64,000 nt of DNA from Candidatus Sphingomonas phytovorans. Its GTDB lineage: Bacteria; Pseudomonadota; Alphaproteobacteria; Sphingomonadales; Sphingomonadaceae. The DNA lies in the NCBI GenBank assembly GCA_029202385.1, contig CP119314.1:3412501-3476500 (forward strand). Direction: 5' to 3'. Of this stretch, positions 24,492 through 34,665 are shown in pieces; the stretch's first letter is position 1; the number at the start of each line of letters is the position of its first letter. The notes beneath the pieces were generated by a model. It worked only from the letters and a program-made list of their open reading frames with translations. It was not told the DNA's origin and ran no database searches. A program made the position numbers and the translations under genes.

Positions 24492-25751
24492 CTAAACGCT
24501 TCCGGCTGCTCGTTCGCCAGCAACCGGCGGTTCCCAGCCGAAGACGCTGCGGCCGCCATAATCGTGCGAATTGCGGAATTCCTCCGCCACGAAGTCGGGC
24601 AGGGTCGGGCCGGTCGCGCGGCGCTCCATCGCGCGGGACTGCGCATCGAGACGCCGGATCGCGGCGAGCTTCTCGTCATTGCCGAGCTTCGCCTTGCCGA
24701 CCGCGTCCTTCATCACCGCGATGGTCCGGTCGAAGACCTTGATCGGCACCGGATAGGGGTGGCGATCCTTGCCGCCATGCGCGAGCGAGAAGCGCGCCGG
24801 ATCGGCGAAGCGGCAGGGCGCGCCATGGATCACCTCGGCCACCATCGCCAGCGAGCGCACCGTGCGGGCGCCGACGCCGGGGACGAGCAGCAGTTCCGGG
24901 AAATCGGCCGGGCCATTCTCCGCCGCGGCGGCGAGCGTGCCGTGGAGGCGACGGATCATCACGTCGGCCGGGCGAACGTCGTGATGGCCCGGCAGCACCA
25001 GGTGCGGCAGCATCGGCTGGTCGTCCTGTGCCGCGGGCTTCGGCGACTCAAGCGCGGCGGCTTCGCGGGCGATCCGGTCAGGCCCGAGATCGCGGAGCAG
25101 ATCGAGCTGCGCATCGCGCGAGGCGGCGGCCCGGCGATCGGTGAGGTTGACAATCTCACCCCCGCCCCTGCCCTCGATTGCCGCATGCGGCGCGTCGACG
25201 AAGCTGCCCAGCCCTTCCGACGACCAGTGATAGCGCCGCGCCTGCCGCGCCGCGCCGTTCATCCCCTGCTGCACCACCACCCATTGCCCGTCGTCAGCGA
25301 CGATGAAGCCGTGGAGATAGAGGTCGAATCCATCCTGCACCGCCGCGCTGTCGACCTTGGCGACGAGCCGGCTGGTCAGTGCGAGGGCGGCCCCGTCGAG
25401 CCCGACCCGATCGCCGATCGCGACCAGCTCGTCCGGCGTGCGGCGCGATTGCTTGCCCCGGCCGCCGCAGACATGGAGGCCGAGCTCCCCGGACAGCGGC
25501 GCGAGGCCGCGCTTCAGTGCGCCGATCACGCTGGTGGTGATGCCGGAGGAATGCCAGTCCATTCCCATCACCGCCCCGAAGCTCTGGAACCAGAAGGGGT
25601 GAGCCAGCCGGCGCAACAGCTCGTCCCGCCCGTAATGATGGATGATCGCCTGCGACATGACCGCGCCGAGGCTCGCCATGCGCAAGCCCAGCCATGGCGG
25701 CACATGGCCGCCATGCAGGGGAAGATCGGCGCTGCCGGCGCGATTGGCCAC
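24492..25751 (-). CDS. DUF763 domain protein with helix-hairpin-helix motif
   Basis: 419 residues from the GTG at 25751 (GGAG six bases upstream). This start gives MANRAGSADLPLHGGHVPPW, which fits the conserved beginning of DUF763 proteins; the longer frame to 25808 adds unrelated residues. Conserved blocks follow: MDWHSSGITTSVIGALKRGL, GLHVCGGRGKQSRRTPDEL and YHWSSEGLGSFVDAPHAAI. LLLVPGVGARTVRSLAMVAE resembles a helix-hairpin-helix, as in non-specific DNA-binding proteins. DUF763 has no established function; the motif suggests DNA contact (inference). It stands alone, convergent with the isomerase. Confidence 0.88.
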   Translation of the reverse strand: MANRAGSADLPLHGGHVPPWLGLRMASLGAVMSQAIIHHYGRDELLRRLAHPFWFQSFGAVMGMDWHSSGITTSVIGALKRGLAPLSGELGLHVCGGRGKQSRRTPDELVAIGDRVGLDGAALALTSRLVAKVDSAAVQDGFDLYLHGFIVADDGQWVVVQQGMNGAARQARRYHWSSEGLGSFVDAPHAAIEGRGGGEIVNLTDRRAAASRDAQLDLLRDLGPDRIAREAAALESPKPAAQDDQPMLPHLVLPGHHDVRPADVMIRRLHGTLAAAAENGPADFPELLLVPGVGARTVRSLAMVAEVIHGAPCRFADPARFSLAHGGKDRHPYPVPIKVFDRTIAVMKDAVGKAKLGNDEKLAAIRRLDAQSRAMERRATGPTLPDFVAEEFRNSHDYGGRSVFGWEPPVAGERAAGSV

Positions 25752-25857
25752 AAAGGCTCCACTGGAACAAAAGTAGAACTTTCTAGCAGATCGCCGCCGC
25801 GATGCCACCTAGGAAATCACGCGAGTTTCGACGGCCTGTGCGCGTGACCCACTGACC

Positions 25858-25882
25858 GGAACCGTAAGGTTGCGTGTTCGTT
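25858..25882 (+). promoter_or_regulatory. EcfG-type general stress promoter
   Basis: GGAAC at 25858-25862 and CGTT at 25879-25882 are separated by 16 bp. This equals the consensus of promoters used by EcfG, the general stress sigma factor of Alphaproteobacteria. It lies 28 bp upstream of the Lmo0937-type gene, which suits expression under stress. Confidence 0.65.
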
Positions 25883-25910
25883 TCGTGGGTTCAATGAAAA
25901 GGACAATCCG

Positions 25911-26060
25911 ATGTTAGGAACTATCGCCGCAATCCTGGTGGTCCTCTGGCTGCTCGGTTTCTTTGCCTTTCATGTCGCCGGCGGCCTGATCCACCTGCTG
26001 CTGGTCATTGCGGTAGTGATGGTCATCCTTCACTTCGTGACTGGCCGCCGCACGGTATAG
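25911..26060 (+). CDS. Lmo0937-type small membrane protein
   Basis: 49 residues, starting MLGTIAAILVVLWLLGFFAF and ending FVTGRRTV. Two hydrophobic segments are joined by a short HVAGG turn, which matches the Lmo0937/DUF5670 family of tiny membrane proteins often induced by stress. AAAAGGA lies seven bases before the ATG. It is preceded by a convincing EcfG promoter. The role of the family is unknown; protection of the inner membrane is often supposed. Confidence 0.82.
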   Translation: MLGTIAAILVVLWLLGFFAFHVAGGLIHLLLVIAVVMVILHFVTGRRTV

Positions 26061-26110
26061 CCGCAGCTCTTTCCGGCGGGACGCGATATCTGACAGCGCT
26101 GTCGATCGGA

Positions 26111-26893
26111 TCAGGCGCCCGGCGCGACCAGGCCCTGCGCGATCGCGGCGGGGAGCCAGGCGGCCAAGCGCGGATCGTCCGAGGCCGAACGTGCAGCGAC
26201 CGCCTCGTCGGGCAGATGCGCGAGCCAGTCATGTTGCCAGCCCTCCAGCCGGTGGCAGGCGACCCGATAGTCGATCCGCGATACCGCCATCAGCGACGGG
26301 GCAGCGAGGGGCAGACACGGCGGCTCGCCGCGATCGACGGCGACAAGCGTTTCGGTGAAGTCGAAGGGCAATTCAAGCAGCCGGACGCTGTCCGGGCGCC
26401 ACCATGAATGGCCGAGACCAAGGCCGAGGATCGAGGCAATCACCGGATCGAAGCCGGTTGCCGTCGCGGCCGGCGTCCTGCCCTCGACGCCCCGCGCGCG
26501 ATGGACTTCAGCCTGGGCCCGTTCGATCCTCGCCAGGGCGCCGGGGATCGCCTCGACCGTTTGCGGGGTGCCATCACCGGCCGGCCGGGCAGCGTCGAGA
26601 TAGTCGGCGAAGTCCGCACCGAAATCGTACAGCGTGTAGGAGCACGACGGATGGGCAGCGATATAGCCCTGCGCGAACAGGCCGAAGGCCGTCGGGCCAG
26701 CGAGCGCGGACAGGACCGGATATTCAGTGCCGAGGCATTCGAGCAGGCGCAGGCGATAGCCCTGGGCGTAGATGCCGATCCGCATCTCGGCGGTCAGGCG
26801 GTTGTCGCCCAGGACATGATCGCGCGCGTCGGCCGCCTCGCCGTCGAGCATCGCCGCCTGCAGCCAGGCCTGGAGATCGGCGGTGCCCGCCAT
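26111..26893 (-). CDS. HvfC/BufC-type partner protein of the MNIO enzyme (DUF2063)
   Basis: 260 residues from the ATG at 26893, which overlaps the stop of the MNIO gene (ATGA), so the pair is translationally coupled. The N-terminal 90 residues hold the DUF2063 'putative DNA-binding' pattern (LQAWLQAAMLDG, RIGIYAQGYRLRLLECLGTE, YPVLSALAG). Known MNIO systems (bufferin, methanobactin-like and others) use such a protein to present the precursor peptide to the iron enzyme rather than to bind DNA. The C-terminal half is a less conserved alpha/beta domain. Last gene of the cluster. Confidence 0.88.
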   Translation of the reverse strand: MAGTADLQAWLQAAMLDGEAADARDHVLGDNRLTAEMRIGIYAQGYRLRLLECLGTEYPVLSALAGPTAFGLFAQGYIAAHPSCSYTLYDFGADFADYLDAARPAGDGTPQTVEAIPGALARIERAQAEVHRARGVEGRTPAATATGFDPVIASILGLGLGHSWWRPDSVRLLELPFDFTETLVAVDRGEPPCLPLAAPSLMAVSRIDYRVACHRLEGWQHDWLAHLPDEAVAARSASDDPRLAAWLPAAIAQGLVAPGA

Positions 26894-27771
26894 CAGGCGG
26901 CGACCCGGGCCATGCCAAGCCCCTCCCGCACCATCCTTGCATTGGCCAGTTCGGCGAGCAGCTCCTCGAAAGGCGGAATGTTCGCATCCCATTCAAGCAG
27001 GGTCGCGACCGGGCCGCAGCGTTCCCAGGCACGGGCATAAAGCGGCCAGACCGCATCGGGCACTGGGTGGTCATGCGTGTCGATCAGGTGCGTGCCATGG
27101 TCGCTCGGCCCGGCGAGGTGAATTTGCACGACATGATCCGCCGGCACCGCATCGATATAGGCGATCGGATCGAACGCCTGGTTGACCGCGCTGACATGCA
27201 CATTGTTGACGTCGAGCAGCAGGCCGCAGCCGGTATCCTCGGCAAGGCGGCCGATGAATTCCCATTCGGGCATCCGGCTGGCGTGGAAGGCCAGATAGGT
27301 GCTGGGATTCTCCAGCACGATCGGGCGGCCGAGCACATCCTGCACCGCGCGCACCCGGCCGGCAGTGTGGGCAAGGCTCTGTTCGGTCAGCGGCATCGGC
27401 AGCAGGTCGTGGCTGTTGAGCCCGCCCACGCCAGTCCAGCAGAGATGGTCCGAGATCCATAGCGGCGAAACGCGCGCGGCGAGCGCCCTGAGCTTCGCCA
27501 GATAGGTCCGGTCCAGCGGCGCGGTGCTGCCGATCGACAGCGACACGCCGTGCATCACCACCGGGCGATGCATCGCGACATGCTCAAGCACGCGCATGCC
27601 ATAGCCCTCGTTATCGAGATAGTTCTCCGAGATGATCTCGAACCAGCCGACACCCCAGTCCTCGGGCGGGGTGCGCATGAGGTGCGGATAATGCTCCTCA
27701 CGCAGCCCGACCCCGTCGCCGGGATCCGGCAGGCCGAGGCGCGGCTGGACAGGAATGGGGGCGCGGTTCAT
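26893..27771 (-). CDS. MNIO family (DUF692) multinuclear iron oxidative enzyme, BufB-like
   Basis: 292 residues from the ATG at 27771; the longer frame runs back into a palindromic repeat. It is a TIM-barrel enzyme of the DUF692 family. Known members use two or three iron ions to convert cysteines of ribosomally made peptides into oxazolone/thioamide or thiooxazole groups. Metal-ligand motifs are visible in order: [71 protein letters not shown] and [14 protein letters not shown]. The gene lies between its HvfC-like partner and a ferritin-like protein with a cysteine-rich tail. No small precursor gene is present nearby, so the tail is the best candidate substrate (inference). Confidence 0.93.
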
Positions 27772-27802
27772 CTCACGAATCGCTGACCGAGAGGTGGGAA
27801 GC

Positions 27803-28002
27803 CACATCCCGCACCCCCTTCCCGTCCCCGGCGGAGGCCGGGGACCAGTCGGGAAGGCGGCAATGGGCACGCGGTGCGCTCACCATCGGCGTCCCGGAGC
27901 CGGACCCCGGCCTCCGCCGGGGAAGATCGGAGAGAGGCTCCGCATCTCCAGCCATCGGCGCGCGCGCGGAACCGTGGCCCCCGGAACAAATCCGGGGTGA
28001 CG
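27803..28002. repeat. Palindromic intergenic repeats between the ferritin-like and MNIO genes
   Basis: TCCCCGGCGGAGGCCGGGGA (starting near 27830) and CCCCGGCCTCCGCCGGGGAA (near 27913) are inverted copies of a second repeat family also seen at 62472-62586. They are followed at 27978-28002 by one half (CCCCCGGAACAAATCCGGGG) of the family at 17201. The 268-bp gap between the two genes is filled almost entirely by these elements; no small cysteine-rich frame was found in it. Confidence 0.75.
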
Positions 28003-28039
28003 GCGGCGAGCGGCGCGGGCGTCCCTGCACCATCGATCC

Positions 28040-30112
28040 TCAGGTCGAGGGCGGGAAAGCGAGGCGGATGTCGTTCGGCGCCTGATAGACCGGCTTGTCC
28101 CGCCCCATCTTCTCGGCGACGGCGGTGAAGGCCTTGAACGCGATATCCTCCACCTTGTCGCCCTTGTTGAACGGCAGGGTGCCGAACTTGGTCGGCTTGG
28201 CCGCGGCGAGCAGGTACAGGTCCATCGTGCCGCTGACCGGATAGATCTGGCAGGCCGAGATCGGCACCGCGCAGCCGCCGAAGCCGCCGCACTGGTTGTC
28301 GCTGGGCGCGGTGTAATGAGTCGCGGTCGGCGTCGGCGTCGGGGTGCCGCACAGCCCGCCCCTGGCGCGCACCGCCACCGCCGAACAACCTCCGCCCTGG
28401 GGCTTGCCGGGAGTCGGCTCCGGCGGCGCGGCAGCGCGCAGGCTCGAGCTGCAACCGCCACCACCGCCGCCCGCCGGCTGGACGAAGCCGCAGCCCCCCA
28501 TGCCCTTGCACAGGTTCGACCCGCGACAGGTATGATAGACCTGGGTCAGCGCGCAGGCGTTGGTGCCGATGCCGCCCGGCGCGTTCAGATCCAGTCCCTG
28601 GCAGGTGTGGTTGACGATCCGCATGTTGGGCGCGGCCACGCCCTGGCTGAGATCGGGCGTTCGCCCCGTCGCTGCCCAGGCCGTCGCCATGCGGTCGCCC
28701 GACCCGGCCATCGAAGGATAGGGAAAGGAGACCGAGGCCCCCTTCGGGTTCCAATATTGGTCGAGCACCGTCGTCACGCCCTTGATCGCGCCGACCACCG
28801 CCTGGCTCAGAATCTGGTGGCTCTGCTCGCGGACATCCGGGGCATAGAGATTGTTGAGCGCTGTCGCGATCTGCTCAGGTGCCGGCAGGTCATAGGGGTT
28901 GTTGTCGGGATCGAAATCATGGGTGGTGAGGTCGGCCGCCGTCCAGTTGCCGGCCTTGCCTGCCTTGTCCCATGTCACGATGCCGCCGTCGCGCATCAGC
29001 CCGCGGACTTCCTTGAAGCGGGCGAAATGATCCTCCCCGTCATTGTCGAAACGCGCCGCCGCATCGCCCGAGGGGACCGGCTCGCCGGTATCCGAAAAGC
29101 TCGGATAGTCCGATTCCAGCGCATCCTTGTCGGAGCGGTAGCGGACCTCGACCGATTTGAGCAGCCCCGCCTCGTTGGCGATCTTCAGCCGCGCCTTGAG
29201 CGTCGCGCCCTCGCCCTGGTCGGTGATGGCGTTCATCATGTTGAGCGCCTGGCGGAAGGCGATGCCGCTGTCGGTGAGCGCGACCGTGGTTTCCACGCCC
29301 ATATATTCGCGCATCGGATGGCCGGGGAAGCTGAAGTTGTTGAACAGGTCGTTCTGCTGCCCGTCCTGGTCGAACACATGGTCCCACAGGCACGATCCGT
29401 CATCGTAGCGGATCTGCAGATAGTCGCGGTAGCATTGGTACATATAGCCGATCGAGCCGAACCAGATATCGGCCGCCGCCGGATCAAAGTCGGGATCGCC
29501 GCGATCGAACGGGACCTTGGGGAAATATCTGCCCTTGTTGTGGATGATGTCGCGCTCGGCATCGTCCTGGGGCTGCTCGATCGCGAGGAACAGCTCGATG
29601 CGATCCTCGTCGAGCGGGCCGACATCGACCTTCACCCCGGCATAGGTCGAGGTGTCGCGCAGGTCGACGATCGTCGGGATCGCGGTCAGATCCGGGCCAT
29701 AGCAGGTCCAGCCATTGTTCCTGTCCTGCAGCGCCGGATCAGTGAAGCTGGGGGTGTGGCCGATCGCGGTGGCGATGTTGGCCGCCATCTGAAGATGAAG
29801 CATCTCCTGGATGAAGATCGAGAAGATGACGTTGAAGGCCCGCTTGTTGCCCCAGCCGGGCTTGTCCTTGGGCGTATCGGTGAAGGCCGCTGCCTTGGCG
29901 CCGGGCCAGATCCGTCCCTTGTAGAAATCATTGCCCTTGCCGGTGATCGGGTGGAAGCCCTCGATCGAATAGAGCGTCGTCATGTAGAGCGGGATGGTGA
30001 ACAGTTCGACATTCACCGCGGCCTGCGCGATCCAGCGCACGACGCGCTTGTCGGTTTCGACCATGGTCACATCGCGCGCCGACAATTCGCCGCTGGCGTG
30101 GGTAAGATGCAT
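28040..30112 (-). CDS. Ferritin-like (VioB-type) protein with bufferin-like cysteine-rich tail
   Basis: 690 residues. Residues 20-300 look like the ferritin-like domain of the VioB (iminophenylpyruvate dimer synthase) family: NVELFTIPLYMTTLYSIEG with Glu36, and FIQEMLHLQMAANIATAIGH with Glu103 and His106, an E...ExxH metal pattern. No signal peptide is seen. From residue 504 to 621 there are 11 cysteines (504, 520, 529, 535, 541, 554, 576, 588, 608, 614, 621) in motifs such as HTCRGSNLCKGMGGCGF and NQCGGFGGCAVP, separated by Gly- and Pro-rich linkers; CxGxNxCKGxGGC is the style of bufferin-type precursors. AAGGGGGA precedes the ATG. The MNIO/partner pair follows on the same strand. It may be both an enzyme and a modified metal-binding protein (inference). 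No violacein-pathway genes are nearby. Confidence 0.85.
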   Translation of the reverse strand: MHLTHASGELSARDVTMVETDKRVVRWIAQAAVNVELFTIPLYMTTLYSIEGFHPITGKGNDFYKGRIWPGAKAAAFTDTPKDKPGWGNKRAFNVIFSIFIQEMLHLQMAANIATAIGHTPSFTDPALQDRNNGWTCYGPDLTAIPTIVDLRDTSTYAGVKVDVGPLDEDRIELFLAIEQPQDDAERDIIHNKGRYFPKVPFDRGDPDFDPAAADIWFGSIGYMYQCYRDYLQIRYDDGSCLWDHVFDQDGQQNDLFNNFSFPGHPMREYMGVETTVALTDSGIAFRQALNMMNAITDQGEGATLKARLKIANEAGLLKSVEVRYRSDKDALESDYPSFSDTGEPVPSGDAAARFDNDGEDHFARFKEVRGLMRDGGIVTWDKAGKAGNWTAADLTTHDFDPDNNPYDLPAPEQIATALNNLYAPDVREQSHQILSQAVVGAIKGVTTVLDQYWNPKGASVSFPYPSMAGSGDRMATAWAATGRTPDLSQGVAAPNMRIVNHTCQGLDLNAPGGIGTNACALTQVYHTCRGSNLCKGMGGCGFVQPAGGGGGGCSSSLRAAAPPEPTPGKPQGGGCSAVAVRARGGLCGTPTPTPTATHYTAPSDNQCGGFGGCAVPISACQIYPVSGTMDLYLLAAAKPTKFGTLPFNKGDKVEDIAFKAFTAVAEKMGRDKPVYQAPNDIRLAFPPST

Positions 30113-30224
30113 GCTGTCCCCCTTACGAAGAAAGTGCTTCGTTCTTGCAGAGACGAGGTTTTCATCGCGAGAGAAAGCGCGTCAATTGATTGAAATAGCA
30201 ACGAAAATGGTGGCATTTCGATAA

Positions 30225-30261
30225 GTGCCCCGATTTCCTCGGGAAAGGGGATTTGGGGCAC
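30225..30261 (-). terminator. Hairpin between lectin and ferritin-like genes
   Basis: GTGCCCC and GGGGCAC form a 7-bp outer stem that encloses a smaller TTTCC-TCG-GGAAA hairpin. It lies about 100 bp past the lectin stop and about 110 bp before the ferritin-like start (both minus strand). There is no T-run, so termination is uncertain. The remaining sequence of this 246-bp gap shows nothing else. Confidence 0.35.
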
Positions 30262-30358
30262 CGGGATTATGCCGGATTCGGTTCCATCTCCCGGATTTGT
30301 CGTTGCGCCGGAAGAGCCCAGGACACGATCAGCTATCGCGGGCTACGACGCGGCGACC

Positions 30359-30931
30359 CTAATGCCCTCCGGTATTGGTGGCCCAAACGATATTGCCCTG
30401 CATGTTCTTTATCACGACGTTGCCATCGTTCTGCACCGACAGCGTCGCGCAATGACTGCTCCAGGTCCCGGAACTCCAGATAGCCCCGCTGGGGCCGTAG
30501 AGAACGAGATTGCCGTCACTTTGAAAAGCGGCGACGTTCGCCCCGGTGCCAACCGTGTTCGTCGCCCACCCCAGCGGCACCCAGCCTGATCCGAGATCGC
30601 CATAGACAACCAGGTTGCCATCGGATTGCATGCGGAACATGACCTTCCCGTTGGGAGACAGGATGCTGGTTTCCACTGCAAGGCTTTGGTCGACACGCTG
30701 GTGGGAATAACGCTTCCGGTTGCTTGCCGCGTCATATTGATAGGTCGTCAGTTCACCAGCGTTCGGGGCCGCTTCGCACACTGACACCAGTCGGCCTATG
30801 GCATCGTATGAATAAGAGATTTTGGTGGCATCGGCCGATGCGGGCGAAACAGACCAGAGCGCGGTAAACGCGATCATCATCCGAATCCTCGTCCCGCTTA
30901 CCCGCACCAGTCGAACCGTTCGAAGCAGCAT
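30359..30931 (-). CDS. Secreted bulb-type (B-type) mannose-lectin with YD-repeat N-terminus
   Basis: 190 residues from the ATG at 30931 (GGGAGG six bases upstream; an ATG at 30934 is the alternative). A signal peptide ends SPASA. Residues 35-70 contain two Rhs/YD-type repeats (YSYDAIGRLVSV and YQYDAASNRKRY). The C-terminal 110 residues form a bulb-lectin domain with the mannose-site motif QxDxNxVxY: QSDGNLVVY, QSDGNLVLY and a degenerate third site QNDGNVVIK that lacks the tyrosine. It may bind mannose-type glycans outside the cell. A YD fragment fused to such a lectin, without the rest of an Rhs protein, is unusual. Base composition is lower in GC than its neighbours, suggesting transfer. Confidence 0.75.
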   Translation of the reverse strand: MLLRTVRLVRVSGTRIRMMIAFTALWSVSPASADATKISYSYDAIGRLVSVCEAAPNAGELTTYQYDAASNRKRYSHQRVDQSLAVETSILSPNGKVMFRMQSDGNLVVYGDLGSGWVPLGWATNTVGTGANVAAFQSDGNLVLYGPSGAIWSSGTWSSHCATLSVQNDGNVVIKNMQGNIVWATNTGGH

Positions 30932-31089
30932 CATCACCCTCCCGCGTATAGGGTAGAGCAGCACCGATGATGCGACATTGCAAGAACGGGAAGTACGAGA
31001 ACGGGAGTAAACGCGACCTGACAGACCGAGAATCATCCGGATATCCGTTGACCGCTCACGCACTCAAATGACGGCCCGGACATTCGGCC

Positions 31090-31524
31090 TCAGATGTTCA
31101 GCGCTGCCTCCAGATTGGCGACGTACATCTCGATATTGCCGCGCGACAGGACGCAGAGTTCCTCCGCCCGGTCGGGGTCGAGCGGGAAGAAATGGGTGCG
31201 CAGGACGAAGATGCACGCATCGGCCCCGGCCGGGGTGACCGTGATCCTGCCGCCATAATCGGCCCAGGGTAGCGGACCATAGTCGACCATGTCATAGGCG
31301 ATCGCCCGCTCCGTCTCGTCGAGCTCGATCAGCCGCTCCACCACCGAGCCGCCGCCGATCGCCGGATCGAGATGATAGGTGCGCCGCGCACCGATGCCGG
31401 TGCCGACCGTTTCGACGCGGTCGACATAACCACGCGTCAGGACGTCGCCGGAAAAATCCCCGACGAATGCCCAGACCGCGTCGGCCGGCGCCTGTATGCG
31501 CCGTGCGATTTCAACCGTTTCCAT
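31090..31524 (-). CDS. SRPBCC family protein (polyketide cyclase/Bet v1-like)
   Basis: 144 residues from the ATG at 31524; the longer frame overlaps the Rieske gene. METVEIARRIQAPADAVWAF is the usual opening of START/Bet v1-like hydrophobic-ligand proteins, and the C-terminal long helix (ELCVLSRGNIEMYVANLEAA) is present. It lies ten bases after the Rieske oxygenase stop on the same strand, so it likely acts on, or carries, a substrate or product of that enzyme. Reaction unknown. Confidence 0.85.
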   Translation of the reverse strand: METVEIARRIQAPADAVWAFVGDFSGDVLTRGYVDRVETVGTGIGARRTYHLDPAIGGGSVVERLIELDETERAIAYDMVDYGPLPWADYGGRITVTPAGADACIFVLRTHFFPLDPDRAEELCVLSRGNIEMYVANLEAALNI

Positions 31525-31534
31525 CGGCCGCCCC

Positions 31535-32590
31535 CTATCGGATGAAGTCGGCGCCGGGATGCGCGCGGGGGTAGGATTTGAGATAATCGACGAAGCGACC
31601 AAGCGCCTTGTCGCTGCGCGTGAACATGCCGCGGGTGAAGCGGATCGTGTTGAGGATGTCGACATCCTGATCGAGGACGTCCATCTCCAGCTTCTGCGCG
31701 AAATCGAGCGTCTCCTGCACCCGGCGATCATCCTCGGGCGTGCCGTTCGACTTGCGGGTTGCGATGACGACATAGCTGCGCAGCGTGCCGGGCCGGTGGA
31801 TGCCGCAGGGGTAGAGGAAGGCGAACCATTCGCCGTTCACGCTGCCCATCTGGTAGAAGATGTTCGTCCCGCGAATGCCGACCTCATAGGCGATCTTCGC
31901 GCCCGTCTCGCGGAAGGTGCCGCTGAGCTGATAGTCATAGCCGTGCGGGTGCCAGACGATGTCCCCGCTCGGGTCGGCCTTGTCCAGCGTGATGCCATGG
32001 ACGATGTTGATATGGTTGAAGTCCGACGTGTTGCACATGAACACCCAGGGATCGGCCAGCAGGTCGATGATCGGGATCTCGCTGTGGAAGCTCAGTTCCT
32101 CGTCGGGAAAACCAAGGGTCGGCAGGTCGAACAGCGGCTCGGTCCCGTTGAATGCCCAGATCAGGCCGAACCGTTCCTGCACCGGATAGCGGAACAGCTT
32201 CATCCCTTCCACGACGCGGTCGTTGCTGCCGGTCCGGCTGCACCGGCCGCTCAGGCTGAACTCCCAGTGATGGAAGGCGCAGACGAGCTGGTCGCCCGCC
32301 ACCTTGCCGATCGACAGGTCGGCGCCATTATGCGGGCAATAGGCGCTGACGACATTGGCGACGCCATCCTCGGTCCGATAGACCGCCACCCGGCCGTCGA
32401 GGAAGTTGCGCCCGAGCACCGCGCCCGGCGCCACGTCGCTCGACCGGCACAGCGGAAACCAGGTCTGCGTGAAAAGGTCGTTATCGCCTTCATAGGTCAT
32501 GCCCCGCCCATGGCGGCGGCGATCGACCAGCTGCGTGGCCGCAAGGTCGCCATTGAAGAAATCTTCGAGATCGTTCGTCTTGGTCGGCAT
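31535..32590 (-). CDS. Rieske non-heme iron oxygenase, alpha-subunit type
   Basis: 351 residues. The [2Fe-2S] ligands are Cys85-x-His87 and Cys104-x2-His107 (CPHNGADL, CAFHHW). The mononuclear iron site is DFNHINIVHG with His193 and His198; a later Asp in the helical C-terminus would be the third ligand. It would hydroxylate or demethylate an organic substrate with O2 and electrons from a separate reductase. No ferredoxin, reductase or beta subunit is in the window, so it resembles single-component-type oxygenases such as demethylases (inference). It is followed by an SRPBCC gene and preceded, 11 bp away, by a TonB receptor. Confidence 0.92.
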   Translation of the reverse strand: MPTKTNDLEDFFNGDLAATQLVDRRRHGRGMTYEGDNDLFTQTWFPLCRSSDVAPGAVLGRNFLDGRVAVYRTEDGVANVVSAYCPHNGADLSIGKVAGDQLVCAFHHWEFSLSGRCSRTGSNDRVVEGMKLFRYPVQERFGLIWAFNGTEPLFDLPTLGFPDEELSFHSEIPIIDLLADPWVFMCNTSDFNHINIVHGITLDKADPSGDIVWHPHGYDYQLSGTFRETGAKIAYEVGIRGTNIFYQMGSVNGEWFAFLYPCGIHRPGTLRSYVVIATRKSNGTPEDDRRVQETLDFAQKLEMDVLDQDVDILNTIRFTRGMFTRSDKALGRFVDYLKSYPRAHPGADFIR

Positions 32591-32601
32591 GGGACGTCCC
32601 G

Positions 32602-34665
32602 TCAGAAATTGAGGGTGGCGGAAACACCGTAGCGCCGGGACGCGCCGGGATAGCGGATGTCGGAAGCGCCGGCCGAGAACTCCTTGGCGAAGAATTCCTC
32701 GGTATAGCGTTCCTTGAGCAGGTTGGTGGCGTAGAGCGCGATCGAGTAGCGCTTCGTCTCCCAGGCCAGCCGGGCATTCACCAGATGGACGGCATCCTGC
32801 TTGTCGACATTGTCGATGTGCCAGTAATTGCCTGACTTCCCGGAATAATCGATTCGCGCGACGATGCCGTCGGCGCCGACCGGCACCCGATATTGGCTGA
32901 ACAGCGTATAGGACCAGCGATAGGTGAGCGGCACCCTGTTGCCACGGAACTGGGCCGTGCCGTTGAAATCCTTTATCTTCGTATCGATGAAGCCGAGCGA
33001 CGCGCCGAGCTGGACGTTGCGGGAAGGTCGCGCCTGCGCCTCAAGCTCGAAGCCGTAGATATCGGTCTTGGCGACGTTGACGATACCCTGGTCGGCGACG
33101 TTCAGGATGAAGACCTGCTGGTTGCGATACTTCATGTAGAAGGCAGCGGCGTTGAGCGTCAGGCGCCGGTCGAGCAGGCTGTTCTTGGTCCCGAACTCAA
33201 GCGTGTCGGCCACTTCGGGCCGGTAGATCGCCGGGAAGACCGCGTTGGGCGGGTTGAAGCCGCCGCTGCGGAAGCCGCGTGCCGCCGTCGCGTACACCAT
33301 GTTGTCGGGCGAGAAGGAATATTTGACCGACAGCTTGGGCTGCCATTCGTCGAATGTCGCCTCGCGCTTCGGCCCCGGCATAAGCCGGTTGGTCTGCTCG
33401 CGCGTGTCATGATCGTAGCGCAGCGCGCCGGTCAGTTCGAGGGCGTCGGTAACGCTGTAGTTGACCTGGCCATAGACTGCCTTGGTCAGGATATCCTCAG
33501 TCGCGCGGGCGGCCGGGAACGGGATATAGGCCGAGGCCGGCAGGCGCGACGCGGTCGGATCGGGCGAGACGAGCACGACCGTGTCGACCCGGCGCCTGGC
33601 GTCGAGCAGATAGGCGCCCGCCGTCCAGCGCAGCTTCTGCGTCGACGGCGACGCCAGGCGGAATTCCTGGCTGAAACTTTCGTAGCGGCGGAGCTGGGTC
33701 GCGCCGAGGATCGATTTGGGGGTCCAGTCGAGATCCTCGCTCAGGTCGATCCTGGTGTTGTTGAACGCGCTGATCGAGCTCAGGGTGAACGGGCCGAAGG
33801 CGTAGTCGACCTTGAGCGAGGCGTCGGTCACCTTGCGCGGGCTCCTGCCCAGGAAATCGTTCTGGATCGGGATGCTGGTGTTGTTCGGCTGGCCGTCTGG
33901 CAGCGGGATATACCAGGATGCGCCGCCCTTGAGGTCGCCATGGGCGCCGCGCAGATCGACCGTGAGCCGATCGGTCGGGGTGAGCAGCAGCCGGCCGCGC
34001 AGGTTGATGTCCTCGACGAAATCGACCTTGCGGTTCAGCGTCACGTTGTTGAAGACGCCGTCGAACTTGCGATAATCGCCCGCGACGCGGAACAGCAGCA
34101 GATCTGGCACCAGCGCGCCGCTCACCGTTCCCGAAACCCGGCGATCATTGCCATTGGCATAATCGAGCGAGACCCGGCCCTGCAGGTCGTTGGTCGGGCG
34201 CTTGGTGGTGATGTTGATCGCGCCGCCGATCGCGTTCCGCCCATAGAGCGCGCCCTGCGGTCCCTTCAGCACCTCGATCTGCTCCAAGTCGAACAGCGCC
34301 TGCTTGATCATGTCGGTCGAGGTCATCTGGACGCCGTCGATGACCAGCGCGACCGGCGCCTCGCCGTTGCGGACCTGGCCGATGCCGCGGATGTTGATGG
34401 CCACGGTGCCGGCGTCCTGCGCATCGACCATCGAGATGTTCGGCACCAGGCTGGTGACGTCGTCGATGCTGCGGATGCCGGCTTCCTCGATCGCCCTGGC
34501 CGAGAAGGCAGTGACTGAATCCGGCACCTGCTGCAGGCTTTCCGACCGCTGCCGCGCCGTGACGACGATATCGTTGCCGTCGGTTTCCTGCGCCTCGGCG
34601 GCGGTGCCGAACAGGCAGGCCGAACCGAGCAGACCTGCCAGCAAACGCGTCCCGACCTTCATCAA
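32602..34665 (-). CDS. TonB-dependent receptor of the Rieske oxygenase operon
   Basis: 687 residues with a signal peptide ending AAEAQ. The N-terminus shows NDIVVTARQRSESLQQVPDS, then plug motifs INIRGIGQVRN, IEVLKGPQGALYGRN and GGAINITTKRPT. The barrel ends YGVSATLNF. It likely imports the substrate of the Rieske enzyme encoded just downstream; large aromatic, terpenoid or steroid-like compounds are usual for such pairs (inference). The divergent region upstream (34666-34777) separates it from the convergent end of the MalT-like regulator, the probable activator of this operon. Confidence 0.92.
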   Translation of the reverse strand: MMKVGTRLLAGLLGSACLFGTAAEAQETDGNDIVVTARQRSESLQQVPDSVTAFSARAIEEAGIRSIDDVTSLVPNISMVDAQDAGTVAINIRGIGQVRNGEAPVALVIDGVQMTSTDMIKQALFDLEQIEVLKGPQGALYGRNAIGGAINITTKRPTNDLQGRVSLDYANGNDRRVSGTVSGALVPDLLLFRVAGDYRKFDGVFNNVTLNRKVDFVEDINLRGRLLLTPTDRLTVDLRGAHGDLKGGASWYIPLPDGQPNNTSIPIQNDFLGRSPRKVTDASLKVDYAFGPFTLSSISAFNNTRIDLSEDLDWTPKSILGATQLRRYESFSQEFRLASPSTQKLRWTAGAYLLDARRRVDTVVLVSPDPTASRLPASAYIPFPAARATEDILTKAVYGQVNYSVTDALELTGALRYDHDTREQTNRLMPGPKREATFDEWQPKLSVKYSFSPDNMVYATAARGFRSGGFNPPNAVFPAIYRPEVADTLEFGTKNSLLDRRLTLNAAAFYMKYRNQQVFILNVADQGIVNVAKTDIYGFELEAQARPSRNVQLGASLGFIDTKIKDFNGTAQFRGNRVPLTYRWSYTLFSQYRVPVGADGIVARIDYSGKSGNYWHIDNVDKQDAVHLVNARLAWETKRYSIALYATNLLKERYTEEFFAKEFSAGASDIRYPGASRRYGVSATLNF

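Follow-up and report, generated by a model that had tools for sequence, protein, structure and literature searches.

A conserved cassette joins an MNIO and its DUF2063 partner to a ferritin-like protein carrying a putative MNIO substrate segment

The known substrates of MNIO (DUF692) enzymes are small precursors. Among these, bufferins confer protection against copper by binding it, and bufferin domains also occur in fusions or long precursors, such as those of Buf1 with Cytochrom_C and FGE-sulfatase, MerC with Buf1, MerC with Buf2, and Buf_EGKCG with EF-hand (PMC12452194). The MNIO, DUF2063, and PF12902 families and the bufferin motif are already known, and the MNIO modification of full-size proteins has been proposed (PMC12452194), with no demonstration found in the literature examined. 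The window analyzed here, a stretch of 64,000 nucleotides from Candidatus Sphingomonas phytovorans (GCA_029202385.1, contig CP119314.1, positions 3,412,501 to 3,476,500), encodes on its minus strand, in order from 30112 down to 26111, a PF12902 ferritin-like protein, an MNIO, and a DUF2063 partner (Table 1). The sequence evidence makes it quite likely that a cysteine-rich segment of the ferritin-like protein is the substrate of the MNIO. The three genes would then form a cassette of the type producing ribosomally synthesized and post-translationally modified peptides (RiPPs), in which precursor and enzyme are one protein, the enzyme being ferritin-like and probably di-metal.

The initial annotation of this locus was confirmed with corrections. 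It had named a VioB/ferritin-like protein of 690 residues, of which the size and the ferritin-like character stood (PF12902, E 2.4e-23, 83.6 bits against a cut-off of 22.3) and the VioB assignment did not, with no match to the VioB model TIGR04492 up to E 0.1. The MNIO was recognized by PF05114 (E 2.3e-104, 348.7 bits, cut-off 25) and exceeded the cut-off of the BufB model NF050167 (352.7 against 310 bits). The partner, previously described as HvfC/BufC-type, passed the DUF2063 model PF09836 (E 1.8e-17, 63.8 bits, cut-off 27.2) and failed the HvfC model NF050145 (16.7 bits against a cut-off of 142). The MNIO and partner genes overlap as had been reported, although the junction reads TGATG rather than ATGA and a single base is common to both (stop TGA at 26895-26893, start ATG at 26893-26891). 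The gap between the ferritin-like and MNIO genes spans 268 bases (27772-28039) and by eye resembles a GC-rich interspersed repeat that may interrupt the operon in this strain.

The ferritin-like protein has 14 cysteines, and the count of 11 within residues 504-621 was borne out (positions 504, 520, 529, 535, 541, 554, 576, 588, 608, 614, and 621). This part had been called a tail; it is internal, being followed by 69 residues (622-690) with a conserved end. Alignment of 78 such regions, from 77 of the 79 loci described below plus L089 (L045 and L046 lacked the anchor word and were excluded), displayed Cys 504, 529, 535, 541, 608, and 614 in 78/78, Cys 520 in 77/78, and Cys 554 and Cys 588 in 70/78 each. 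In a structure model, the segment had low predicted local distance difference test (pLDDT) scores and followed a confidently predicted core, for which Foldseek identified a fold match to PDB 3hl1 (CC_0557) over residues 9-489 (residues 5-489 effectively compared). Six candidate ligands (E36, E103, H106, E179, E301, and H362) were invariant in 52/52 sequences, suggesting that the PF12902 fold probably carries an invariant di-metal-type ligand set and may hold two metals. Inspection of the N-terminus by eye, no predictor having been run, revealed no signal peptide, and the protein is therefore probably cytosolic. No Pfam family matched the window segment up to E 10.

The segment and its neighborhood were conserved among relatives of this protein, hereafter family 1. 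In a protein search that scored 8000 candidates, 754 homologues reached E 1e-10 or better, and C[RK]GSNxC...GC was present in 120 of 121 sequences (the 120 homologues listed and the window protein P0001). A genome scan, which selected loci with two patterns from the ferritin-like core and not with the segment, gave 162 stretches that encode relatives; the best 80 were kept and represented 79 distinct loci with 40-99% identity. Many of these loci are closely related to each other and their counts are not independent events. The motif CxxxNxCxxx[GAS]GC was identified in 79/79 loci, with 9-20 cysteines after the ferritin-like core; an MNIO came next on the same strand in 78/79 and a DUF2063 gene then followed in 77/79, the exceptions being contig ends (L022 stops 2 bases and L072 approximately 1 kb past the gene). 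According to record titles, the loci span Alpha-, Beta-, and Gammaproteobacteria, Actinomycetota (Saccharothrix and Actinophytocola), Bacteroidota (Mucilaginibacter and Chitinophaga), Sulfidibacter, and Ignavibacteria. No fourth constant gene was seen by eye in an all-against-all comparison, made without a domain search, of 1803 neighboring open reading frames from 29 representative loci. Widespread neighbor clusters were rejected as pathway genes, as the positions of those read marked them as shadow frames of core genes, and the few smaller clusters (3-5 genus labels) lie kilobases away. Among plasmid records, two Pseudoalteromonas matches at 33% were found for P0001 and none for P0158 or P0293.

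Comparison of PF12902 proteins with and without the segment linked the MNIO to the segment. Two evenly drawn genome samples were screened for PF12902, with 10/387 Alphaproteobacteria and 19/397 Pseudomonadota genomes positive, giving 27 distinct genomes (G000 and G366 occurred in both samples); the surroundings were fetched for the 26 besides the window's own genome. An MNIO lay beside the PF12902 gene in 5/5 cases with the segment (G000, G028, G249, G466, and G567) compared to 0/22 without, which if independent would arise by chance in about 1 of 80,000 cases. Four of the 22 segment-less stretches were shorter than 8.2 kb, three PF12902 matches were fragmentary (G442, G485, and G424), and G028 and G567 are probably the same genomes as L013 and L026 of the 79-locus set. 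A motif search of all open reading frames in the fetched loci identified the segment in four only, the same as those with an MNIO neighbor. As MNIOs are present in 155/387 Alphaproteobacteria genomes, adjacency and not mere presence counts as evidence. Homologues lacking both features, which had been anticipated as potential counterevidence, are common (22/27) but represent other branches that lack the two together, which fits the linkage. In G003 and G685, the PF12902 proteins are cysteine-rich in a different way, with CRCG...KPFCD motifs at the C-terminal end and no MNIO nearby; these motifs resemble CDGSH iron-sulfur domains and presumably constitute a different metal module on the PF12902 core.

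A second PF12902 family was represented by the G466 protein (L129), which has a divergent core, the same kind of segment, and adjoining MNIO and DUF2063 genes. This family comprised 553 homologues at E 1e-5, and among the 120 listed, HxC[MAQ]G[LM]N was present in 112, CxxxNxC[KRA]xxGGC in 115, and fewer than five cysteines in the second half in two (P0205 and P0212, both short). The TIGR04492 cut-off was not reached by family 2 (best 27.3 of 1250 bits). Segment profiles of the two families aligned with a score of 81.3 (E 1.1e-12) compared to at most 22.3 for 149/150 column shuffles; the remaining shuffle exceeded the observed value with 131.9, its alignment covered 6 columns where the profile ends, and it was treated as an artifact. 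The shuffles keep composition and not cysteine spacing, such that they test motif order rather than common descent. The family-2 segment also aligned with a profile of 12 BufA2 sequences (54.7, E 6.5e-9, 60/60 shuffles lower), derived from 30 loci that yielded 15 pattern-extracted sequences from which three wrong frames were dropped. On whole proteins, the BufA2 model NF050166 matched P0159 (E 4.5e-5) and P0157 (E 8e-4), with the best relative at 23.6 bits against a cut-off of 60, and some family-2 members had E-values in the same range with the unrelated models CdeC and MrtC. By NF050166 alone, the convincing matches were P0159, P0157, and the split precursors described below. In surveys for further members, the 42 genomes from the class of G466 yielded G466 itself and the 377 from the class of G652 yielded one short match. 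Another 48 genomes yielded four short matches, of which two were split precursors and the other two were PF12902 frames with no tail.

In a phylogenetic tree of 63 MNIO rows, a branch (support 98/90; present in 99% of the bootstrap trees) had all 35 segment-linked proteins (32 from family 1, one from family 2, and two split) on the same side. Adjacent to this clade were two MNIOs from NF050166-like loci, and the clade fell in the part of the tree holding the better BufA2-linked MNIOs. The 28 comparison rows came from one class sample, mostly from loci below the BufA2 cut-off and with two rows from the same gene, and as bufferin-1 and oxazolin MNIOs were not deliberately included, "one clade" is relative to this 63-row sample.

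A natural split was identified in three Saccharothrix genomes, in which a small cysteine-rich protein, an MNIO, a DUF2063 protein, and a separate PF12902 protein are encoded in this order; the L038 and L043 genomes hold both fused and split forms and the third split genome is G1219. Two of the small proteins matched NF050166 (E 1.1e-4 and 2.5e-4) and the three separate PF12902 proteins matched their domain at E 4.3e-41, 4.5e-42, and 1.3e-39. The split precursor aligned with the family-2 segment (E 4.5e-29) beyond the cysteines and through a shared helix-like stretch. Segment and PF12902 domain are thus fused in one place and neighbors in another, which is classic evidence for parts working together. 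The small protein had 327 homologues, the 120 listed being of 137-252 amino acids with 8-10 cysteines; these stand-alone proteins are likely MNIO precursors, with neighborhoods seen in the three Saccharothrix genomes only. Sources of the stand-alone family include Streptomyces, Kitasatospora, Nocardiopsis, Amycolatopsis, and Saccharothrix, with no Pfam domains listed.

Borosins have the modifying enzyme fused to its substrate. By analogy, the PF12902 domain may be a second tailoring oxidase that further processes the segment of its own protein after the MNIO; this reading is contained in the proposal that the MNIO modifies the segment. The MNIO and the fused, putatively di-metal, ferritin-like oxidase might then act in turn on one segment to generate a protein-borne metal cofactor or arm, the enzyme being fused in two PF12902 families and also split in Actinomycetota. 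The Saccharothrix PF12902 gene follows the precursor, MNIO, and partner genes as a tailoring enzyme would, and the six candidate ligands are invariant; however, the literature examined contained no PF12902 enzyme with a peptide substrate and the structure model is uninformative as to whether the segment reaches the core, such that self-processing, the main competitor to the metal-binding tail proposed in the initial annotation, is tentatively entertained but doubtful. Alternatively, the PF12902 core could be an inert carrier or sensor and the modified segment alone could matter as a cytosolic copper buffer, in line with the copper binding and protection described for bufferins (PMC12452194) and with the many Actinomycetota proteins in which the segment alone suffices (neighbors seen in three genomes). 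The invariance of the candidate ligands and the retention in Saccharothrix of a PF12902 gene beside a separate segment render an inert core improbable.

A separate substrate for the MNIO was sought at the locus and in the genome. The region 25600-31100 contains 15 small open reading frames (20-150 amino acids, at least 3 cysteines), none with a bufferin-like motif by eye and none lying entirely within the ferritin-like/MNIO gap, in agreement with the earlier statement that the gaps hold no short cysteine-rich precursor. A hidden small precursor was rejected, with nearly all 15 frames overlapping the three genes or their neighbors in other frames or strands. A profile search of the own genome gave one PF12902 and two MNIO matches, the second MNIO being encoded approximately 34 kb past the window's end, after a BufA2 bufferin (NF050166 E 8.5e-32) and before a DUF2063 gene (E 3e-16). 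Two MNIO systems therefore coexist in this genome. No further BufA2 was identified there, other precursor families not having been sought; a separate bufferin serving the MNIO of the window, which would have spoken against the initial annotation, was thus not found, and the genome's other bufferin has its own MNIO and partner. That the MNIO nevertheless serves a precursor elsewhere, with the cysteines of the segment as unmodified ligands (e.g., for zinc or iron-sulfur) or disulfides, would suit the weak BufA2 match of the window segment. It is very improbable given that MNIO linkage in the PF12902 sample occurs only where the segment is present, that the split form has a separate precursor, and that neither an orphan BufA2 in the own genome nor a small precursor in the searched region was found.

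Several observations weigh against the segment as the MNIO substrate. The window segment matched NF050166 at E 0.18 with 12.0 bits, below the 60-bit cut-off, and the alignment of the family-1 segment with BufA2 was weak (27.1 over 15 columns, hhalign probability 38%), albeit above 200/200 shuffles. P0004 and P0104 had no NCBIfam match in whole-protein scans, and the MNIO linkage of family 2 comes from one locus. PME-type 1 partners correlate with Sec-signal precursors (PMC12452194), and no signal was seen by eye here despite a PME-type 1 like partner. The site next to the catalytic base was Ala in 73/81 family-1 MNIO frames, while Cys-Lys MNIO enzymes are described with Asp at this selectivity site (PMC13097082); Ala was also present in 4 to 5 BufA2-linked rows. 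On the other side, the proposal that a cysteine-rich segment of a large protein is the MNIO substrate is supported by the linkage, the second family, the BufA2-like motif, and the Saccharothrix split, as well as by the grouping of the segment-linked MNIOs, the low pLDDT of the segment after a confident core, and the separate BufA2 and DUF2063 genes of the genome's second MNIO. Under this proposal, the partner and MNIO would bind the ferritin-like protein, perhaps via its conserved C-terminal part, and the MNIO with its DUF2063 partner would oxidize some of the segment cysteines. As in bufferins, 5-thiooxazoles would be the most likely products. The modified flexible arm could subsequently bind copper (probably) or another metal beside the putative di-metal oxidase core.

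The gene directly upstream of the cassette, at 30359-31063 (-), has a short product that contains an RHS repeat and weakly matches B-lectin. At 31090-34665 (-), genes of the Rieske oxygenase, polyketide-cyclase-like, and TonB-dependent receptor types follow one another, possibly as a catabolic island.

Table 1. Features of the cassette in the window and of the related loci identified elsewhere.
Feature	Position	Strand	Basis
Ferritin-like protein, 690 amino acids, fused to putative MNIO substrate	28040..30112	-	Open reading frame, PF12902
PF12902 match, residues 30-305	29198..30025	-	Profile match
Candidate metal ligands E36, E103, H106, E179, and E301 in the PF12902 match; H362 just past the match
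Cysteine-rich segment, residues 504-621, 11 cysteines, motif CRGSNxCKGxGGC, putative MNIO target	28250..28603	-
Residues 622-690, conserved C-terminal region, candidate recognition element	28043..28249	-
MNIO, BufB-type (NF050167)	26893..27771	-	PF05114
DUF2063 partner, PME-type 1 like, 260 amino acids	26111..26893	-	PF09836
Complete BufA2 operon (BufA2, MNIO, DUF2063)	Own genome C1:3510611-3511727 (L001 / L136)
Stand-alone cysteine-rich proteins	L172:4881-5555; L173:4872-5495; proteins P0244-P0363
PF12902 proteins fused to C-terminal CRCG...KPFCD motifs	L112 3729-5729; L127 4536-6920	-; +

No paper joining an MNIO/DUF692 protein with a ferritin-like or VioB protein was found in the open-access PMC literature searched, and "ferritin" and "VioB" are absent from the main text of the MNIO landscape paper (PMC12452194). 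The same searches gave no mention of an MNIO paired with a ferritin-like enzyme or of how widespread this pairing is, nor of a second family or a split arrangement. PF12902 genes are reported near lodA/lodB-like quinoprotein genes in fungi (PMC4417212), another setting in which a ferritin-like protein stands beside a post-translationally modified protein. The cassette is a widespread and well-delimited case with a natural control, being split in Saccharothrix and fused elsewhere, and it turns the MNIO modification of an enzyme into a testable question. If the segment is modified as proposed, an enzyme would gain metal ligands made after translation, and the same modification could be expected as a candidate feature in many proteins currently annotated as hypothetical or ferritin-like.

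Among the systems compared, VioB differs in that P0001 had no TIGR04492 match, and CC_0557 (PDB 3hl1) and other tail-less PF12902 proteins differ in that the 22 tail-less loci sampled had no MNIO nearby. The TIGR04222 proteins are also large with a late cysteine-rich segment and some are MNIO-linked; however, they are integral membrane proteins mostly from Actinomycetota (PMC12452194), and a profile scan of the 690-residue protein gave no TIGR04222 match. The adjamnio-I precursors, of 122-293 amino acids with 8-21 cysteines and encoded before an MNIO (PMC12452194, Table 2), are possibly the same group as the stand-alone form, the two being compared by description only; the adjamnio-I partner is PME-type 2 (PMC12452194), whereas the three stand-alone loci have DUF2063 matches. 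The bufferin-2 systems (BufA2-BufB-BufC; Cys-Lys captophorins) share the order precursor-MNIO-DUF2063 and the CxGxNxCKG-type motif, and the MNIO of the window passes NF050167 and belongs to a clade lying among BufA2-linked MNIOs. In contrast to bufferin-2, the substrate here would be a 690-residue ferritin-like protein with no signal peptide visible by eye, the segment does not score high enough for the BufA2 model, and Ala predominates at the selectivity site. The published bufferin fusions likewise place a bufferin-like segment on a larger protein, and protein-size substrates were proposed in the same study (PMC12452194); those fusions are few instances in two bufferin families (PMC12452194), whereas the ferritin-like fusion described here was found in 79/79 loci.

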